Origin: Agrococcus pavilionensis RW1
GTDB taxonomy: Bacteria > Actinomycetota > Actinomycetes > Actinomycetales > Microbacteriaceae
Length of the DNA: 64,000 bases
Direction: 5' to 3'
NCBI RefSeq assembly: GCF_000400485.1
Contig: NZ_ASHR01000004.1
Coordinates: 1-64,000, forward strand
The translations under genes were made by a program, and so were the position numbers. The notes under the pieces are model-generated. The model searched no databases. It had not been told where the DNA came from and was given only the letters and a program-made list of their open reading frames with translations. Below, in pieces: positions 1 to 35,706 of the stretch. How positions within the stretch are numbered: the first letter of the stretch is position 1; each line of letters begins with the position of its first letter.

Positions 1-468
1 GTCGGGGATGCGGCCGAGCTTCTTCACGTCCATGTGGACCAGCTCGCCCGGCCGCTGGCGCTCGTAGCGGATCGCGGTCTGCTTCGAGGTGCGGATCAGC
101 TCCCCGGTCATCGGATCCAGCGCCGCCAGCGCCGGCGCGCCTCGACGGGCGAGCACGCGCGAGACCGTGCGCGGCGAGACGCCGACGAGCTGCGCGATCG
201 CCTCCCGGCCCAGGCGCTCCTCGACCCGAAGCCGCACGATCTCCAGCTCCGTCTCCTCCGGTGTTCGCGTCGGCGACGAGCCGGGCCGGGAAGAGCGGTC
301 CTGGAGACCGTCGATGCCCTCGGCCTCGAACCGTTCGACCCAGCGGCCGACGCAGTTGCGCGAGCAGCCCATCGCGGCCGCGACGTGCGAGCGCGACCAG
401 CCCGCTTGCACGCGCAGCACCGCGATCTCCCTGCCCCGAGGCGTCAGACGAGCGTTAGCGTGGGACAC
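1..468 (-). CDS. IS481-family transposase, N-terminal part (cut by window edge)
   Basis: About 156 residues are visible from a GTG start at 468; the C-terminus lies beyond base 1. The N-terminal half is a helix-turn-helix typical of IS481/IS3-like transposases (AGWSRSHVAAAMGCSRNCVG, then a RWVERFEAEG segment). It is followed by a second helical region (REAIAQLVGVSPRTVSRVLARRG), a YERQRPGELVHMDVKKLGRI junction, and so the start of the DDE integrase core (the D of HMDVKKLG). The catalytic core is mostly off-window, so intactness cannot be judged. Role: cut-and-paste or copy-out transposition of its own element. It lies at the left edge of the accessory region with the defence-type genes. Family call is from motifs only. 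Confidence 0.85.
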   Translation of the reverse strand, partial: MSHANARLTPRGREIAVLRVQAGWSRSHVAAAMGCSRNCVGRWVERFEAEGIDGLQDRSSRPGSSPTRTPEETELEIVRLRVEERLGREAIAQLVGVSPRTVSRVLARRGAPALAALDPMTGELIRTSKQTAIRYERQRPGELVHMDVKKLGRIPD

Positions 469-527
469 GAGGACCTCCGTTGGTCGGTGAAGCGTTGAAC
501 AACTCCACTCAACCCGCGGAGGTCCTC
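469..527. repeat. 11-bp inverted repeat just upstream of the transposase
   Basis: GAGGACCTCCG at 469-479 is the exact reverse complement of CGGAGGTCCTC at 517-527, with a 37-base loop. It begins at the base next to the transposase start codon, so on the minus strand it forms the leader of that gene. It could be a hairpin that limits read-through into the transposase, or an internal part of the element end. The outer end of the element probably lies near 540-575 but I cannot fix it without a second copy. Confidence 0.6.
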
Positions 528-569
528 CTCACGCCACCACCCACTGCACCAAGGTCATGACCGGGTACA

Positions 570-1149
570 CCTAGCCGGGAGCGGTCGAGAGGGTGAGCGC
601 CGATTGGTCCGGAAGGTCGAGGCGCCATGATGTCGCCATGGCCTGGGACGAGGGGCGATATGGCACCTGAAGGAGCTCACAGTGCTCGGTCGCTGCGGCG
701 CCGCAGCCGCGCGCGAGCCGGGCCGATGACCGTCTTCACGGCACGCCGCTACAAGCAGCTGCCCGCGGTGCGCGAGATCGCCGACCGTCTCGCTGGGCCT
801 CCGGCCGGCCGAAATGGGGCTGCGGGAGACGCGGACGGTCGGGGCGACCTGCGTCGCGTTCGTGTTCCCGCTCTGTGACTCAACGATCGCGACGGACGTC
901 CTGATAGCGGGTTGTTCGGGTTGATGGGTCAAAGTCCCGTGGGCGACGTTACGCTTGCCGACTCAGCACGTGCGCAGTGTGTGCCATTGGAGAAGTAACT
1001 AAAGTGCCGCAACGAGCGTCGCTCCTGCCCGGACTTTCGATGAGTTCACGCGTGCTGGCACATGGTCTCCTCGGGGTGCGACGCGGAGGACCGCGGCTCG
1101 ATTCTCTTCGGGCAGCGACTGAATCGTCAGTGCGCTAGCCCGAGACTTG
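570..1149. other. gene-free stretch between IS end and nuclease gene
   Basis: No convincing gene. A short open frame around 727-880 gives the fragment GLRPAEMGLRETRTVGATC in one frame and looks like a decayed coding remnant, but I cannot assign it. The opposite-strand frame is arginine/proline rich and looks like a shadow. The right part (950-1149) holds the region after the nuclease stop; I see no strong hairpin in it. Confidence 0.4.
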
Positions 1150-2478
1150 TCATGGCTTCACAGGCGGTATGTGCACCGTGGCAATAAGGAGCCGAAGTTC
1201 CTTACCATCGCGTCGGTATCGATTGATCTTCCAACCTTGAACGGCCGAAGCCTCCTCGGCCTCGAAGCCCTGGACCGCCTTCAACACCGGCAGATGACGA
1301 CTATAGGCGGCAACCGCATTCTTCTGTCGGAAAAGCAGGAGCAGAACAGCCGCGGTATTAGCGGAGTTGAGGTAGCTGAAAAGTTGCGGGTCCAGCGCCT
1401 CACGAACGACTTTCGAGCCAGTGGCCCACTTCGTTTCGGCGATGAAGACGCGCGCCTCGCTCGACCCATCATCGAGGGCTTTTGCCCTCACTTGAATGTC
1501 GGTTTTGCCACGCCTCGAGAAGACCTCGCGGTCTGCTCCCGGGAGGGATGCGTGAAGCGTTGCGGCAAGGAGATCGCTCACACGCTCTTCATCAAGAGCG
1601 CTGAACGCCGCGGGATAGCGCTCGACTGCGTTGGCCCAAACCCGTATGGCTCGCTGAAGTTCCTCGAAGCTCGCTTCAGCCAGGCGGTCACGAAACAACG
1701 GAGTCGTGACACTGCGATTCGTATCTAAGTCGATCGGTTCGGCTGTTGGGGTCACCTCCGGCGCCTTGAGTTTCCACTTCTCAGGGAACGCGACGCCAGT
1801 GGTCACGCTGGAGAACGCGGCCAGTTTCCGGCGTCTGAATTCGAGTGCCTCTTGGGCCAGCTCCGGCAGCTTTACGTCAAAGTAATCGGCGGTTTCCGCT
1901 CGGATTGCATCAATTATGGGAAGCATGAGCGCTTCGCGGTCATCGTAGATCTTCTGTACCGAGAGCTTGCCGGCATGCACCCGCTCGAGTTCTTCATGCG
2001 TGAGGTCGATGGGCGTATAGAGCGCCCAGTCATCGTCTCCGTCAACCGGGCGTATGATCCACACCGCCTCACCCGCTGCCAAGTAAGGGTGCTCGGAGTC
2101 GCGGTCGATGACTGGTACGGAGCACTCCGACGGCCACCTGCTGAGCAAACCGGCCGCCCCGAGGATCTGGCGTCTGAACCAGAATCGAGTAAGCGCGGGC
2201 CTCGAGCCGTCGTCTTGTGCGGGGCCCCACAACTCGCCCTCTTGCACACTCCCGTGCCCGCCGCCCGCCAGTTCTGGAGGATCGGGGCGGATTGACGCCA
2301 AGAGAACGTGCAGCGAACCCTCAAAGCGCTTCAGGTCGACGAGAGTCTTGGTGGCGTGGATCGATGAGATCGCTAGTTGCCCGAACTGCGCCAACGTTGG
2401 GCCGAGCGGGCGATGGTCTGCGATGAACCGGGTGAACGGCGGATTCGCCAGCGCATCCGCTAGGAGGTCCGAGAGCAT
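1150..2478 (-). CDS. PD-(D/E)XK-like nuclease-domain protein of unknown family, putative defence effector
   Basis: 442 residues from the ATG at 2478; in-frame GTG starts at 2496 and 2535 would add up to 19 residues, and none has a clear Shine-Dalgarno. The N-terminal 270 residues are unrecognised. The C-terminal third has a restriction-endonuclease-like pattern: TDIQVR (Asp about 327), a turn, then VFIAETKW (Glu about 348, Lys about 350), a strand-Asp/strand-Glu-x-Lys arrangement seen in PD-(D/E)XK nucleases. A hydrophobic strand NTAAVLLLLF follows. It lies 222 bases downstream of the SIR2-like gene on the same strand, so they may be co-transcribed. Lower GC bias than the backbone (many A/T third positions) suggests transfer. 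Nuclease activity is inferred, not shown. Confidence 0.6.
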   Translation of the reverse strand: MLSDLLADALANPPFTRFIADHRPLGPTLAQFGQLAISSIHATKTLVDLKRFEGSLHVLLASIRPDPPELAGGGHGSVQEGELWGPAQDDGSRPALTRFWFRRQILGAAGLLSRWPSECSVPVIDRDSEHPYLAAGEAVWIIRPVDGDDDWALYTPIDLTHEELERVHAGKLSVQKIYDDREALMLPIIDAIRAETADYFDVKLPELAQEALEFRRRKLAAFSSVTTGVAFPEKWKLKAPEVTPTAEPIDLDTNRSVTTPLFRDRLAEASFEELQRAIRVWANAVERYPAAFSALDEERVSDLLAATLHASLPGADREVFSRRGKTDIQVRAKALDDGSSEARVFIAETKWATGSKVVREALDPQLFSYLNSANTAAVLLLLFRQKNAVAAYSRHLPVLKAVQGFEAEEASAVQGWKINRYRRDGKELRLLIATVHIPPVKP

Positions 2479-2700
2479 GGGATTACGAGTCCGCACAGGA
2501 CCAGTGTGCCCGAAGCATTTGGGAACCGAACCCACTCGTCAAGAACTCGACGCGTGAGGCGCTCGAAGCGGTACGTGCGCTGGCGGCATCAATGCGCGGG
2601 AAAGTCAAGCCCCGACGTGTGGGCGGCTCTGCGAGCAGCACTCGCGAGTGGGGCGCGAGACGTATGGGAGGGGGCACGCGACGCGGCAATCGAACGGCCG

Positions 2701-3882
2701 CTAGACAGAAGCATAGATGGCAGACAGGCCTTCGGCGGCACCGTAGCTCAGGATGGTCATCCTGAGGTGGTGGTTGCCGAGCGAAGCTGGGTCCGCATCA
2801 CCGGGGGCGAGTTGCGCGCTGAGCCTCTTCCACTCCAGCCCACCGATTCCGACCTCCAGGCCCGGATCGATCACGATCACGCGAGCGTTAGGAGCAGCCG
2901 CGACCCAATCGACGATGATGGCGTTGATGTGCGAGTCGCGGAAGGAGTAGCCCGCGACGACGAGCAGAGCGACATCGTTCAGCGCGGCTTCGAACGCCCG
3001 CAGGAGGGGCAGAGTCGGACCGTGCACCCGGACCTTATCCCCCTCACCGAAAATCTGAACTTGCGTCAGGTCGGTGCCGAGAGGAACCGCGTCTGGATTA
3101 GGTTCATCCAGGAGCGCGAAGCGGCCGAACGCGACGGGAGGCGTGTGAGGAAGCAACGGTGGCTGCAAAAGCCGCTTGTACCAGCCGATAGAGCCGTGGA
3201 GCTTGAGCAACGGGGTGCTGCTTCGATCAGGCTGGGGCCATTCTCTGCCACCGTCCCATGCCGCGGCGCCTGAGTCGAGGCGTTTTCCAGCTCGATCCGC
3301 TGCGCCCTCCAGCAGTCGGTCGTAGTTCAGCGTTGCGATCGTGCGGGGCGCATGGGCGGAGTCCAGCGGCGCCGCCAGATAGTCGCTGGCGGCGGGGTCG
3401 AGCGCGCTCAGGATCTCGTTGATATGTCTCAACGTCGCGCGCGCTAGCAAGTCGAGCGACATGGTTGCGGGCCTGTCGGACGGCAGGTGCGTGAGATCGA
3501 CCGAGAAGCGGTCCACCAGACCATGAAGCGCGTTGGCATCCCGCCCTGAGAGTAGAAGCAGTGTGCTGTAGAAGCGCTCGATGTCGATCGGTTTGCCCGT
3601 GCGGTCGCGGAGCGCGTCCCGAAGCCGCACGACAAAGGCGGGGGCGGCCGGGTCCCACCATCGCTCCACGTTGACTGCCTCAACAACCTTGTCGGTCAGG
3701 CCAACCGCGGTGGGCGCTCCGGCATCGACCGACGCGCCGGCTCCCATCAAGAGGAGATGGTCCGACGTCGCGAGCCAGTGTCTAGCCAATACGAGTTGGG
3801 CCGCAGTGGTCGGCACTGCGATCGACGGGGCGGTGGCGGATAGAAGGAGCGTCAGGTTGTGAAACGACGGCGAGATCGACAC
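2701..3882 (-). CDS. SIR2-like domain protein, probable NAD-consuming defence effector
   Basis: 393 residues from a GTG at 3882, chosen because AGGA lies 7 bases upstream. Residues 43-330 carry the bacterial SIR2-like signature: LLLMGAGASVDAG (glycine loop, 47-51), TIATLNYDRL (Asn186/Asp188), LLKLHGSIGW (His229, the usual catalytic histidine) and VVAGYSFRDSHIN (311-320). Family knowledge: such SIR2-like proteins in defence islands (Thoeris ThsA, DSR, others) hydrolyse NAD+ on infection. Only about 60 residues follow the SIR2 core, so there is no room for a SLOG domain as in ThsA and the trigger must be elsewhere. Neighbours are a nuclease-like gene downstream and a divergent TIR gene. NADase activity is inferred. 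Confidence 0.85.
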   Translation of the reverse strand: MSISPSFHNLTLLLSATAPSIAVPTTAAQLVLARHWLATSDHLLLMGAGASVDAGAPTAVGLTDKVVEAVNVERWWDPAAPAFVVRLRDALRDRTGKPIDIERFYSTLLLLSGRDANALHGLVDRFSVDLTHLPSDRPATMSLDLLARATLRHINEILSALDPAASDYLAAPLDSAHAPRTIATLNYDRLLEGAADRAGKRLDSGAAAWDGGREWPQPDRSSTPLLKLHGSIGWYKRLLQPPLLPHTPPVAFGRFALLDEPNPDAVPLGTDLTQVQIFGEGDKVRVHGPTLPLLRAFEAALNDVALLVVAGYSFRDSHINAIIVDWVAAAPNARVIVIDPGLEVGIGGLEWKRLSAQLAPGDADPASLGNHHLRMTILSYGAAEGLSAIYASV

Positions 3883-4069
3883 GTTTGCATCCTATGGTCG
3901 TCCATCTTCCAGAATCACTTCGATGTAGCCGGCTTGCCCGGGCATCCCCCGCCCGTGACTTTCGGAGTGAATCTGTACCGATGCCGGCGCTACGTAAGCG
4001 GCGGGGAGCTGTCGGATGTCGGGACGGCCCTTGAGTGTGGCGGCGCCCCAAGAGGGAAGCCGCTAGTGG

Positions 4070-4258
4070 ATGAGCTCGGTTGGCGAAACTCTACGATCAC
4101 GCGCTCATGCCCGCACGACTTCGACAGGCCGACCGCCGATCGACGAGTACTTCGACGATCGCTACCGGGACGAGCCGTTCGCTACCGAGGTAAAGTGTGT
4201 GACATTCCTCTTCGAAGCACACCAGACCCGCGAATGGCGGCGAGACTTCGGTCTGTGA
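4070..4258 (+). CDS. small hypothetical ORF or gene remnant
   Basis: 62 codons from an ATG without a Shine-Dalgarno. The last 40 residues (PIDEYFDDRYRDEPFATEVK and then CVTFLFEAHQTREWRRDFGL) have a natural-looking protein composition, while the first 20 are arginine/threonine rich. It may be the 3' end of a lost gene rather than an expressed small protein. The rest of 3883-4444 between the divergent SIR2 and TIR genes holds nothing else I can support. Confidence 0.35.
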   Translation: MSSVGETLRSRAHARTTSTGRPPIDEYFDDRYRDEPFATEVKCVTFLFEAHQTREWRRDFGL

Positions 4259-4444
4259 CTCTCCGCTCCCAAGACGCCGACCGTTGAGGGAACCACACTG
4301 GGCAGTGAAGACATGGACACGTCGGGTGCGCTACTTCCCGCTGATGGTCCGCCCTCTACTAGCGGCGATGTCTGCCATTTCGGCCCCGGCGCGGAGAGGA
4401 TCGGGCAAGGACTCTCGTTCGGCGCATGTTGTACCGGACCGCGG

Positions 4445-4450
4445 TAGGTT
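4445..4450 (+). promoter_or_regulatory. -10 hexamer TAGGTT for a leaderless TIR transcript
   Basis: TAGGTT ends exactly 6 bases before the GTG start at 4457 and no separate Shine-Dalgarno is needed, which is the usual spacing for leaderless actinobacterial genes. No clear -35 is visible. Confidence 0.5.
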
Positions 4451-4456
4451 GGAGCT

Positions 4457-4999
4457 GTGTCAGGCGATCACGTATTCATCTCGTACATCACCGAAGACTC
4501 TGATGTGATCGACGAATTGCAGGCAGCGCTCGAGGCAGCCGAGTTCATCGTCTGGCGCGATAAGGACAACCTGTGGCCTGGCGACGACTGGCAACGTGAG
4601 ATCCAGAACGCCATCCGTGGTGGCTCTTTCGTGTTCCTCGCGTGCTTCTCCTCCAATCTGGCGAAGCGGGAGAAGTCCTATCAATTCGAGGAGTTGATTC
4701 TCGCGGCGGAGGAGTATCGGCGACGTCCGCCGGGAGCGTCTTGGCTTATGACCGCGCGGCTTGATGAGTGTGAGGTTCCGGAAATCGACCTCGGCATGGG
4801 GCGAACGCTCGGCAGTTCTATCCACCGCGCCGACCTATTCGGACTGCAGAAGTACGCACAGATTAGCCGCCTCGTTTTGTGGCAATCCAGCGGGCCATGG
4901 GAAGTGCTCCGGCCCCGCCGCCCCCGTCAGTCTCACGGGCCGCTGCGGAGGCGGGACGTGCCGAGAATGACGTCGCGGAGCGCTTGCGCGGTCTACTGA
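4457..4999 (+). CDS. TIR-domain protein, N-terminal part (frame continues in the next entry)
   Basis: Residues 5-135 form a bacterial TIR domain: HVFISYITEDSDVIDEL, then FIVWRDKDNLWPGDDWQREI, SFVFLACFSSN, and SYQFEELILAAEE with Glu78/79 as candidate catalytic residue, then WLMTARLDECEVPEI. TIR domains of this type cleave NAD+ or make cyclic-ADP-ribose signals in defence. After RLV (about residue 140) the frame turns into low-quality sequence (LWQSSGPWEVLRPRRPRQ) up to the stop at 4999. In the -1 frame the protein continues naturally as VAIQRAMGS and beyond. One extra T in the TTTT run at 4875-4878 would restore a single protein of about 497 residues. Either a real lesion or a sequence error. 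Confidence 0.85.
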   Translation: MSGDHVFISYITEDSDVIDELQAALEAAEFIVWRDKDNLWPGDDWQREIQNAIRGGSFVFLACFSSNLAKREKSYQFEELILAAEEYRRRPPGASWLMTARLDECEVPEIDLGMGRTLGSSIHRADLFGLQKYAQISRLVLWQSSGPWEVLRPRRPRQSHGPLRRRDVPRMTSRSACAVY

Positions 5000-5949
5000 G
5001 GAACCCAGGGCGCATCATGGACTACGACGAGTACCTCGCGGAGTTGCGTGCGCCGATCCAAGACGCGCTCGGTCTGCGGGACGACTTTCCTCCGGACTTG
5101 ACGTCGAGTCGACGGCTGAGTCCCGAGTTCGTGCGGGAATGGGTCAGCCGGGTCCGGCGGTACGACGATCTCTTGGCCCCCGCGCTGGTCCCGATGAAGC
5201 TAATTTCGATGTACGGGTCTCGTCCCCACGAGCAAGAGCTCACCCGCACACTTCAGATGGTGGCGCATGAGTCGACGAAACGCACCGGCCTCGACATCCT
5301 CACCGCGCTTCGAGAGTATCCGGCGCTGCTTCTTACGTACACAGCGGCGCTCGGCGCGATCGCCAAACAGAATTACTCCATGCTGCGAGCGGTAACCGCG
5401 GACGTCCAGGTGGCACCTCTGGGGTCGGAGAGCATGCCGTTCATTCTTACAAGCGGGAGCCAGAGCGTGGTGGGACTTGACCAGTGGCAGGCCCTCGGCA
5501 CCGTGCTGTGTAATGAGGATCAAGGCGAACAGCAGACGGATGCGGAAATTGAGATGCTGCTGACCGGTCGGCGGGGCCGCCGACGCACGTCGATCTCCGA
5601 CCACCTCTTCACTGTTCTTGCGCCTCTGTTCCGGCAGCAGTTCGCGAGTGATCACGACTACGCCGACGCCTTCGATCGCGCGGAAGTATTGCTAGACGCG
5701 GTGTCCGAAGATGCTCGGGCGCAAGGTGAACGGTTCTATGGGCCGCACGGGGGCTATGGCCGCTACACCTGGAGGCATCGGGACACGGCGAAAGGGCCGG
5801 AGGCAGAGATGCTCGCTGAGGCGCAGGGCCAGGGCGCTGGATGGACGCCGCTGTTAGGTGGTTTGTTCGGCGGAGTGCCCGAACGCTCCGTCCGGGCGTT
5901 GGAAGAGGTAGCGAGCCTCGCTACCCGGATTCGCTCCCCCCGGTGGTAA
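4879..5949 (+). CDS. unrecognised domain, probable C-terminal part of the TIR protein
   Basis: 356 residues if read from GTG 4879, but there is no Shine-Dalgarno there and the frame has a stop at 4864, so an independent start is doubtful. It most likely continues the TIR gene after the frame break. Contents: a proline/alanine linker (residues 8-35), then a mostly helical region containing DYDEYLAELRAPIQ, ALREYPALLLTYTAALGAIA and LDQWQALGTVLC, a basic patch TGRRGRRRTS, and a glycine-rich segment GPHGGYGRY near residue 290. No family recognised. By position behind a TIR effector it could be the infection sensor or an oligomerisation domain; that is inference from domain order only. Confidence 0.65.
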   Translation: MAIQRAMGSAPAPPPPSVSRAAAEAGRAENDVAERLRGLLRNPGRIMDYDEYLAELRAPIQDALGLRDDFPPDLTSSRRLSPEFVREWVSRVRRYDDLLAPALVPMKLISMYGSRPHEQELTRTLQMVAHESTKRTGLDILTALREYPALLLTYTAALGAIAKQNYSMLRAVTADVQVAPLGSESMPFILTSGSQSVVGLDQWQALGTVLCNEDQGEQQTDAEIEMLLTGRRGRRRTSISDHLFTVLAPLFRQQFASDHDYADAFDRAEVLLDAVSEDARAQGERFYGPHGGYGRYTWRHRDTAKGPEAEMLAEAQGQGAGWTPLLGGLFGGVPERSVRALEEVASLATRIRSPRW

Positions 5950-6177
5950 AGCTCAGCTGGACTGTCGCCGATAGTGGGCAGTCAGGTCGCGCCAACGGCC
6001 AACCCGCCGGCGCAACGGTTCATCGCACCCGTGCCCCGTCCTGAATACGCGCCAACGGTCGGAGTGTCCAAGAACGTGTCCACATTGAGCGGGATCGGAC
6101 GGGATCGTGTAGGCATGCGGGAGGACAAACGGGCCCGAAATGGGCGGAAAGCAGCGGAAAATGGCGGTCGAACAGTC

Positions 6178-6215
6178 GGCAGGGGGTCGGGGGTTCGAGT
6201 CCCCCAGATCCACCA
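6178..6215 (+). tRNA. tRNA 3'-end fragment (T arm, acceptor strand, CCA); likely attachment-site half
   Basis: T arm GGGGG-TTCGAGT-CCCCC at 6189-6205, then AGATCC and ACCA to 6215. No matching 5' acceptor strand (GGATCT-like) or D arm exists upstream, so this is not a complete tRNA gene. The segment between the T stem and ACCA is 6 rather than 7 bases, so it may also be slightly decayed. Such fragments are what site-specific integration into a tRNA 3' end leaves behind. Identity of the parent tRNA (or tmRNA) is not determinable here. Confidence 0.7.
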
Positions 6216-6223
6216 ATGTGATG
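6201..6223 (+). repeat. direct repeat copy 1 (att-like, tRNA 3' end plus flank)
   Basis: A 23-bp sequence beginning CCCCCAGATCCACCAATGTG is repeated exactly at 6499-6521. It covers the 3' end of the tRNA fragment including ACCA plus eight flanking bases. The two copies bracket the miniature IS481 derivative. Confidence 0.85.
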
Positions 6224-6238
6224 TCTCAGGACATCGTG

Positions 6239-6274
6239 AACGACTGAACCCCCGCTTGCGGGGGTTCAGTCGTT
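6239..6274. terminator. strong hairpin at the IS end
   Basis: A 15-bp perfect stem (AACGACTGAACCCCC / GGGGGTTCAGTCGTT) with a GCTTGC loop. It contains the stop codon of the transposase tail and could terminate transcription in both directions, insulating the TIR gene from what follows. Confidence 0.65.
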
Positions 6275-6397
6275 TCTGGGTTGGTAGCTCTTGTCGGGGT
6301 TGAGGGTGTAGTCGCCGAGGACTTCGCCGTCGTGGGCGATGACGGTGGCGTGGCCGGCGACGGTGACGGCCTTGATCAGCAGCTCGTTCTCGCTCAC
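6266..6397 (-). pseudogene. IS481-type transposase, last 43 codons only
   Basis: Translates to a typical IS481 C-terminus: ENELLIKAVTVAGHATVIAH, then DGEVLGDYTLNPDKSYQ and a stop at 6266. The N-terminal 250-300 residues are missing. The tail differs from what can be compared with the transposase at 1-468, whose C-terminus is outside the window. Confidence 0.75.
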
Positions 6398-6451
6398 CGT
6401 TCACGATGTCCCGAGACATCCCGAGACATCCCGAGACGGGCCAGTCGGCCG

Positions 6452-6489
6452 TTCACGATGTCCCGAGACATGCGTTCACGATGTCCTGA
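6452..6489. repeat. two extra copies of the IS481 terminal repeat
   Basis: TTCACGATGTCCCGAGACA recurs at 6452-6470, identical to the right end at 6400-6418, and a shorter copy TTCACGATGTCCTGA is at 6475-6489. Between 6411 and 6440 the unit CCCGAGACAT is also reiterated. These look like scars of repeated insertion or recombination at the same IS end. Confidence 0.7.
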
Positions 6490-6498
6490 AACCAGACA

Positions 6499-6521
6499 CC
6501 CCCAGATCCACCAATGTGATG
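6499..6521 (+). repeat. direct repeat copy 2 (att-like)
   Basis: Exact copy of 6201-6223, but here only the five C residues of the T stem remain upstream of the acceptor strand. The sequence that follows leads into backbone genes, so this copy may keep the original downstream flank of the tRNA gene. Confidence 0.85.
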
Positions 6522-6541
6522 AGTCGAGACACAGGTCACGA

Positions 6542-34053: not shown

Positions 34054-35706
34054 TCAGCCCTCGAGCGAGACGTCCGAGAAGTCGGGGCGCCCGACCGACT
34101 CGGTCGCGAAGCCGTCGACGCCCGGCCGCACGCCGTAGACCTGCGGCTCCTCGAAGAACGGCAGCACGTAGGCCTGCTCCGTGAGGTGCGCCTGCACGGC
34201 TGCGGATGCCGCGGCGCGCCCCTCGGTCGTCGGCTCCGATGCGACGCGCTGCAGCAGCGCCTCGAGCTCTGCGTCGATCGGCGCGCCGCTCTCGTCGTCG
34301 TTCTGCAGGGTGTTGCGGTTGGCGATCGAGAACTGGCTCTTGATGACGTCGAAGTCGGCTCGCCCGACCATCGAGTGGTAGATCTGGATCTGGTCGATGT
34401 CGGCGGACGCCGCGGTCTGCGCCGCCTGGTCGCCCTGGAAGAGCTCGAGCTCGACGCCGATCTCGCGCAGTTGCTGCGCGATGAGGGTGATGACGTCGCG
34501 GGAGCGCGGCTGGGGGAGCGCCTCGTTCACGACCAGGCGCAGCCGCTCCCCATCCCGCGTGCGGATGCCGTCGGCGCCGACCTGCCACCCGGCCTCGTCG
34601 AGCAGGCGGTTGGCGAGCGCCGGGTCGTGCGCGTACGCGTCGGCCTGCTCGGCGTACCCGAGCGCCGTGCGGCTGAGCGACGAGGTCGCGAGCGGGTAGC
34701 CCTCGGAGAAGATCGACGAGACGAGCTCCTCGCGGTCGATGCCGGCGATGAGCGCCCGCCGCACCGCGATGTCGGCGAGCAGCGGGTGGCCGAAGCGGAA
34801 GCTCAAGCCGTTGTTGACGCCGTTCGTCTGCGCCGCGACGATCTCGAGACCCGCGGCGGCGACCTGCGCCTCGTGCTGCGGCTCGACCTGCCGCGCGATG
34901 TCGGCCTGGCCGGCGACGAGCGAGCCGATGCGCACGCTGTCCTCGGGGGCGATCACGATGTCGACGGCGTCGAGGTGCGGGCGCCCCTGCACGGCCGCCG
35001 ACGGCGGCGCCCACGCGTAGTCCTCGCGCGCGGCGAGGCGGATCGAGGTGCCGACCTGCTCGGACTCGACCGCGAACGGGCCCGCGCCGATGATCTCGGC
35101 CGCGTTCCCCGGGCCGAAGCCCTCCGAGTCCCGCTCGAGCGTCGCATCCGCCAGCAGTCCGGAGTTGATCGTCGACACCGCTTGCGCGAACCCGGGGGCG
35201 GGGGCGCTGAAGTGGAAGCGCACGGTGTCGTCGTCGACGACCTCGCCGCGCTCGTAGTTGTTGATCGCCTCCGAGACGATGAGCGCCCGCGAGGGGTCGC
35301 CGAGGCCGAACAGGTCGAAGTTGGCGACCACGTTCTCGGCCGTGACGGGGGTGCCGTCGGAGTAGGTGACGTCGGTGCGCAGGTCGAAGGTGTACTCGGT
35401 CGCGTCCTCGTTCACCTCGGGCAGCGCTGCGGCGACCCAGGGCTCGAGCTCGAGCGTCGCGGGGTCCTGGTGCAGCAGGCGAGCGGTCACGTTGTTGACG
35501 AGCGCGCCGTTGGGGTAGAAGCCGGCCGCCGGCGGGTAGAGCGAGGTGTACGCCTGGTGCTCGAGATAGGTCAGCGTGCCGCCCGTCGCGGCGCCGCCGT
35601 CGGATGCATCGGGCGAGGCGGCGCTCGCGGAGCACGCGCTGAGTGCGATGGCGGACGCGGTGGTGACGGCGACGACGGCGCCGGCGCGGGAGCGGGTGCG
35701 GATCAC
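34054..35706 (-). CDS. ABC transporter lipoprotein solute-binding protein (family 5, KPN_01854-like)
   Basis: 550 residues from GTG 35706, chosen for GGAGG 6 bases upstream. Signal peptide with lipobox AIALSACS (Cys25), then GGTLTYLEHQAYTSLYPPAA, a family-5 peptide/nickel-binding start, and YTFDLRTDVTYSDGTPVTAE, the family signature. Anchored outside the membrane; captures the solute. The set of this protein with a luciferase-like monooxygenase and paired AhpD-fold proteins matches the KPN_01854/Avi_7169 cluster type known from TIGRFAM models; the solute there is not established. Confidence 0.88.
   Translation of the reverse strand: MIRTRSRAGAVVAVTTASAIALSACSASAASPDASDGGAATGGTLTYLEHQAYTSLYPPAAGFYPNGALVNNVTARLLHQDPATLELEPWVAAALPEVNEDATEYTFDLRTDVTYSDGTPVTAENVVANFDLFGLGDPSRALIVSEAINNYERGEVVDDDTVRFHFSAPAPGFAQAVSTINSGLLADATLERDSEGFGPGNAAEIIGAGPFAVESEQVGTSIRLAAREDYAWAPPSAAVQGRPHLDAVDIVIAPEDSVRIGSLVAGQADIARQVEPQHEAQVAAAGLEIVAAQTNGVNNGLSFRFGHPLLADIAVRRALIAGIDREELVSSIFSEGYPLATSSLSRTALGYAEQADAYAHDPALANRLLDEAGWQVGADGIRTRDGERLRLVVNEALPQPRSRDVITLIAQQLREIGVELELFQGDQAAQTAASADIDQIQIYHSMVGRADFDVIKSQFSIANRNTLQNDDESGAPIDAELEALLQRVASEPTTEGRAAASAAVQAHLTEQAYVLPFFEEPQVYGVRPGVDGFATESVGRPDFSDVSLEG

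Follow-up and report, generated by a model that had tools for sequence, protein, structure and literature searches.

The window analysed here is a stretch of 64,000 nucleotides from Agrococcus pavilionensis RW1, at the start of contig NZ_ASHR01000004.1 (C4 below; C29 and C49 are other contigs of the same genome). Near its left end lie a nuclease-like gene, a SIR2 gene and a TIR gene. A sequence-only reading had described these as a compact group at a tRNA-type junction, either one composite anti-phage system or independent modules side by side. Taken together, the features listed below are read with fair confidence as the right half of an element of about 13.2 kb at tRNA-Ala(GGC). The element would carry unrelated candidate anti-phage genes, including a broken receptor gene of the TIR-X type, in which a TIR domain is followed by a C-terminal domain called X. 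On this reading, an apparent three-gene system becomes a mixed defence island.

1-528, minus strand: transposase gene, N-terminal part at the contig edge, which we take to be of the IS481 type; a C-terminal counterpart with compatible frame lies at the end of C29.
1150-2535, minus strand: P0001, nuclease-like gene, PD-(D/E)XK-like, divergent relative of PDC-S54 (PADLOC, 8e-25); likely start ATG at 2478.
2701-3882, minus strand: P0002, SIR2 protein of 393 amino acids (Pfam SIR2_2, 7.7e-12), no second domain found.
4457-4878 (open frame 4457-4999), plus strand: TIR half of the frame-broken TIR-X gene (Pfam TIR_2, 1e-16).
4879-5949, plus strand: P0004, X-domain half of the TIR-X gene, in the other frame (C-terminal half of PADLOC PDC-S65, 5.6e-24).
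6179-6216, plus strand: repeat of the tRNA-Ala(GGC) 3' end, resembling an attachment site at the right border of the island (matched at 97% by C29:28124-28162, where the intact tRNA-Ala(GGC) gene ends).

The tRNA-type junction was borne out in the form of a partial tRNA. The 38 bp at 6179-6216 correspond to about the last 38 nucleotides of tRNA-Ala(GGC), and ARAGORN detected no full-length tRNA gene anywhere in the window. The intact tRNA-Ala(GGC) gene is located on C29 (28086-28161), where it is followed by a phage-type integrase (Phage_integrase, 1.7e-12) and a SIR2 protein of 981 amino acids. At the end of C29, positions 35155-35258 overlap window 1-104 in the same orientation, within compatible transposase frames (102 of 104 positions identical). 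The G+C content is 0.635 (C29 28200-34000) and 0.641 (window 1-6215) inside the island, and 0.733 (C29 22000-28080) and 0.729 (window 6841-64000) outside. The part of C29 between the tRNA and the contig end, added to window 1-6216, measures about 13.2 kb, and the two contig ends probably form one low-GC island of this length. The features of a tRNA-integrated island, namely a duplicated tRNA 3' end, an integrase beside the tRNA and foreign composition, are all present.

Some further observations concern the island and its borders. The 981-residue SIR2 protein (G000:C29:30468-33413, equal to L192 8469-11414; SIR2_2, 3.6e-19) matches ThsA, LmuA and Dsr profiles weakly within its SIR2 part; it also gave an uncertain hint of STAND below the cut-off (E 0.008). 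Window 1-74 is matched at 78% by C49, a contig of 15 kb. In window 6216-6540, short repeated pieces similar to the terminal part of the tRNA fragment occur together with 'gtgatgtc...gacatcgtgaacg' motifs. Related pieces occur elsewhere in the genome and in the genus, and the repeats are perhaps remnants of earlier insertions. tRNA-Ala may be an integration hotspot.

P0001 lies downstream of the SIR2 gene on the same strand and, as had been noted, contains a C-terminal D...ExK pattern. The match to PDC-S54 covers residues 214-457 (the last 240). Only the C-terminal part of P0001 matches this profile, whereas four of four members scanned match it nearly end to end. Both have in common the C-terminal 240 residues with D...ExK...QxxxY; P0001 differs by ETK for ECK, a divergent N-terminus and an identity of 17-27% to the aligned members. 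Residues D346, E367, K369, Q384 and Y388 are invariant across 14 aligned rows and again across 45 rows, the latter fetched by the ECK pattern, so that E and K were partly selected for. The core of PD-(D/E)XK proteins has D...ExK on adjacent strands, in the order alpha-beta-beta-beta-alpha-beta. The AlphaFold model of P0001 has a mean predicted local distance difference test (pLDDT) score of 69.5 and a predicted template modelling (pTM) score of 0.44, with many C-terminal blocks above 80. It contains a helix (316-330), three strands (334-340, 343-350, 362-370), a helix (374-388) and a strand (395-402), and the invariant residues fall in the order expected of the superfamily. A Foldseek search of PDB and BFVD with this model gave nothing at E <= 0.001, so the fold is assigned from the motif and the secondary structure. 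The top PDB rows were nucleotidyltransferases with a TM score of about 0.1; one viral protein of 118 amino acids was listed at E 0.02 (TM 0.64 of that protein's length). P0001 is probably a stand-alone enzyme that cuts nucleic acid.

Relatives of P0001 were found in seven of 396 order genomes, own genome included, the best-scoring one being 33% identical. No closer relative was found in the phylum sample, in which a match counted for G440 (E 3e-4, with stops) does not resemble a relative. For the PDC-S54 family, 80 of 219 confirmed loci were examined. HsdS-like or HsdR-like genes are located at most four open reading frames from PDC-S54 in nine of the 80 (union of two clusters, one representative of each confirmed by Pfam). 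An accessory role of PDC-S54 in type I restriction was rejected as a general rule, nine loci being too few. In L073 and L139, a PDC-S54-type gene lies directly 3' of hsdR; the type I restriction R subunit of L139 (8751-12242) has a C-terminal SLFN_AlbA_2 domain, and the PDC-S54 relative comes directly after it.

The assignment of P0002 as a SIR2-like protein held, and all of the motifs named for it were found (GAGAS, TLNYD, LHGS and GYSFxDxHIN, the last as GYSFRDSHIN). N186, D188 and H229 are invariant in seven aligned rows. SIR2_2 is the only Pfam match at E <= 1, and no SLOG domain was found. The best relative is 32% identical over 310 residues (seven non-self matches among 396 phylum genomes, own genome included). 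One plasmid match is 26% identical, and 98 further near genomes yielded one weak partial match; no close relative was found among those genomes and plasmids. Once triggered, P0002 probably depletes NAD. Its best PADLOC match is Aga_SIR2 (4.6e-21), the SIR2 protein paired with prokaryotic Argonaute (pAgo), which has a SIR2 domain of similar size. A relative of P0002 in L044 indeed adjoins a pAgo (pAgo_II, 3.4e-209). P0002 might accordingly be read as the effector of a pAgo pair whose partner was lost, which we consider unlikely. The L044 relative is only 23% identical to P0002, and a relative on an Arthrobacter plasmid has no annotated pAgo beside it. A Piwi search of the own genome gave zero matches, while a control genome with Argonaute was picked up.

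The third gene had been described as a TIR gene with a large unknown domain. Both domains are there, but not in one reading frame. TIR_2 covers residues 6-139 of the TIR half, and homology of this half (4457-4999) to relatives ends at about residue 141. X, the C-terminal domain of about 300 amino acids, follows in the other frame. The sequence was aligned with two intact TIR-X relatives from genomes of the same family; identity is 84-87% over 141 amino acids of the TIR part and 66-67% over 356 amino acids of the X part, and the frame changes near 4875 in the window copy. The gene is therefore broken here, unless the sequence is in error. If TIR and X were two proteins by design, by a split gene or a programmed frameshift, the codon-position bias kept in both halves and a possible GTG start of X at 4879 would be accounted for. 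This is quite unlikely, however, since the two closest relatives are single frames of 496 and 499 amino acids, four more distant TIR-X proteins (497-553 amino acids) are single frames as well, and by eye no ribosome-binding site precedes 4879.

The X domain is also present on proteins with other effector heads, an addition to what had been claimed for it. P0004 matches the C-terminal half of PDC-S65 only, and this half is matched elsewhere by caspase-X (4.7e-46), the TIR-X protein of L162 (2.2e-20) and AlbA-X (1.2e-18). According to Pfam checks, X stands behind TIR_2 heads (L021, L022, L162, L163), SIR2_2 heads (L164, L165, L179, L184, L185, L186, L189), a Peptidase_C14 (caspase) head in Pseudoalteromonas piscicida (L161), SLFN_AlbA_2 heads on plasmids of Mycobacterium and Mycolicibacterium (L181, L182, L183) and a TIR_2/SEFIR head (L190). 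A profile of X itself had two non-self matches in 79 class genomes, namely L190 and L189. In L166 and L168, from the PDC-S65 family search, the SIR2 part was matched and X was not, so heads are also joined to other tails.

Profiles of single X classes were used to search the X set together with 2,516 open reading frames of the 80 PDC-S54 loci. With the TIR-X profile, E-values were 1e-48 to 1e-47 for AlbA-X, 6e-33 for caspase-X and 3e-30 to 9e-12 for SIR2-X. Matches were weakest from the AlbA-X profile to SIR2-X (3e-11 to 2e-4, with L186 missed). Comparisons between X classes by hhalign gave probabilities of 98.2-99.9 in six of six class pairs, and one AlbA-X and one TIR-X are 33% identical over 91% (7e-26). 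As judged from these alignments, the X family of the TIR gene is one common tail domain joined to four kinds of effector head. When 20 X domains are placed in a midpoint-rooted tree, the AlbA-X sequences group as a single clade (99/98), which joins the TIR-X of L162 (100/99) within a group of TIR and AlbA proteins (98/96). Because of this nesting, head exchange is well supported there; the placements of caspase, SEFIR and some SIR2 proteins are weak.

On plasmids, X was found in 31 different records: 21 annotated as SIR2, four TIR, four of AlbA_2 type, one caspase and one hypothetical. Many of these are near-copies (8 from Halobacterium), and the domains of nine of the 31 records were checked. 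With the queries used, no phage yielded X, it was confirmed in no viral contigs, and it appeared in 0 of 17 PHROGs rows.

In the likeliest reading, the X-bearing proteins would be single-protein immune receptors with a common sensor and exchangeable effectors. In an intact TIR-X protein, the N-terminal TIR NADase would be kept off at rest and released when X meets a signal of the invader, and the loss of NAD would then stop the cell. X would be the constant part, serving for sensing, assembly or both, while the N-terminal effector would be exchanged between TIR, SIR2, SEFIR-type TIR, caspase and Schlafen AlbA_2 domains. The TIR gene of the window would be a frame-broken copy of such a receptor. 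The NADase and nuclease activities, sensing by X and an abortive outcome are predicted here. The model takes up the way in which TIR and SIR2 effectors work elsewhere in defence, as described in excerpts of PMC10952713, and effector exchange in conflict systems, as described in excerpts of PMC7159879 and PMC8195603. The chances are about even that X is the constant recognition module of an undescribed family of single-protein receptors, with NADase, protease and Schlafen-type heads swapped onto the same sensor. PDC-S65 is already known as a PADLOC candidate. Searches of open-licence papers gave no hit for PDC-S65 or for TIR, SIR2, caspase and Schlafen combinations, and brought up neither the TIR, caspase and AlbA_2 versions nor their common X, including in titles and the opening parts of abstracts; since the literature search covered open-licence papers only, 'undescribed' is not established.

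A search against a collection of defence-system profiles, suggested with the sequence-only reading, placed the genes in separate families: PDC-S54 for the nuclease-like gene, Aga_SIR2 for the SIR2 gene and the C-terminal half of PDC-S65 for X. The co-occurrence check, suggested likewise, detected no repeated adjacency. The SIR2 profile matched in two of the 80 PDC-S54 loci, L128 (4.8e-25) and L064 (0.018, weak; a SIR2-X gene beyond clpX), and the TIR profile in none. The order in L128 (740-3577) is a SIR2 gene, a gene that by eye is HerA-like, a transposase-like gene and the PDC-S54 gene. No P0002-like gene was present in the fetched stretches around the six non-self order relatives of P0001, eight of its nine plasmid relatives (H9, from Spiroplasma, was left out of the neighbour reading), its one phage relative (a record of only 4.7 kb) or its phylum relatives. 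The stretches fetched for four non-self TIR-X relatives contained no relative of P0001 or P0002, although two of these stretches stop close to a contig edge; contig ends also truncate the stretches of G162, G069 and G032. Intact TIR-X genes are present in G289, in G069 and on a Rhodococcus qingshengii plasmid. On plasmids, TIR-X genes lie among different neighbours, in one case with another TIR gene at a distance of about 2.4 kb.

These limited samples support the absence of recurrent adjacency. The three genes are concluded to be independent modules, because no pairing recurs in the loci examined; of the two arrangements proposed earlier, modules side by side fit best. A two-gene system of a rare lineage, in which the SIR2 and PD-(D/E)XK-like proteins combine NADase and nuclease and the TIR gene stands apart, appears improbable. 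P0001 and P0002 are consecutive on the same strand and both low in G+C, and the P0001 subfamily, with ETK and a divergent N-terminus, is hardly sampled. The pair is not compact, however: the first possible GTG lies 165 bp from the SIR2 stop, and the ATG of residue 20 lies 222 bp from it. Moreover, a SIR2 profile match accompanies PDC-S54 in just the two loci named above, and no P0002-like neighbour was present in the stretches fetched for relatives of P0001. A composite system of the whole three-gene set was rejected and is very improbable, for although all three lie in one island, each gene fits a separate family, no pair recurred in the samples examined, the TIR gene is disrupted while the other two are open, and intact TIR-X genes sit among other neighbours.

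Several points weigh against a mixed tRNA-Ala island with a broken X receptor. Where C29 and C4 overlap they are 98% identical rather than fully so, and the tRNA-Ala 3' end occurs in another partial copy (C49:5364-5423, 90%), so other arrangements are possible. A sequencing error could account for the frame change. Sensing by X is itself a prediction, and the role of X could be limited to assembling or inhibiting the head. The best solved-structure relative of X was found at E 0.41, and its AlphaFold model (two rows) has a pLDDT of 35.6 and no confident fold. The X tree needs four head changes for five head labels, which is the least possible, and therefore gives no support to repeated swapping. 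The scan for PDC-S54 loci used the ECK pattern, which P0001 with its ETK does not fit, so a SIR2-linked subfamily near P0001 could have been missed. The SIR2 profile has a narrow reach, giving a true SIR2-X an E-value of only 0.018; close relatives were the basis of the TIR profile, and several loci end at contig ends.

Among known systems, Thoeris (ThsA, SIR2-SLOG, with ThsB, TIR) likewise has SIR2 and TIR domains near each other. In the window, no SLOG was found on P0002, the genes are divergent, and TIR is fused to X in the relatives. No ThsA profile, as would mark a SIR2-SLOG (STALD) protein, occurs among 25 of the 26 PADLOC matches. The window TIR matched ThsB profiles at 9.8e-4 and 0.016 and ThcB4 at 0.0088, far below the cut-off; the TIR-X relative L162 reached 6.1e-6 for ThsB and 3.3e-7 for ThcB4, also below it. 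Neither reached any NCBIfam cut-off as a ThsB partner. Thoeris was rejected on these Pfam and PADLOC domain results, which agree with the earlier statement that a SIR2 protein without SLOG does not make the set equal to Thoeris.

The proposed logic of the X family is comparable to that of NLR or Avs receptors, which differ in that no NTPase domain was found in the X proteins. A constant part with varied effectors is likewise described in excerpts of PMC7159879 and PMC8195603 for effector-exchange conflict systems, the latter paper naming 13 domains that are exchanged within one system, TIR and SIR2 among them. The constant parts named in these excerpts are EACC1, EADs and others, not X, and the words 'Schlafen' and 'AlbA' are absent from the main texts of both papers. 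With PDC-S65, the TIR gene of the window has the C-terminal X domain in common; it differs in carrying TIR_2 in place of SIR2, the two full-length PDC-S65 matches scanned (L164 and L189) carrying SIR2_2. Should X prove to be a common sensor, a single trigger could be followed through several read-outs (loss of NAD via two head types, proteolysis and Schlafen-type cutting of nucleic acid), head-swap experiments would be natural, and the PADLOC candidate PDC-S65 would be widened to a larger class.

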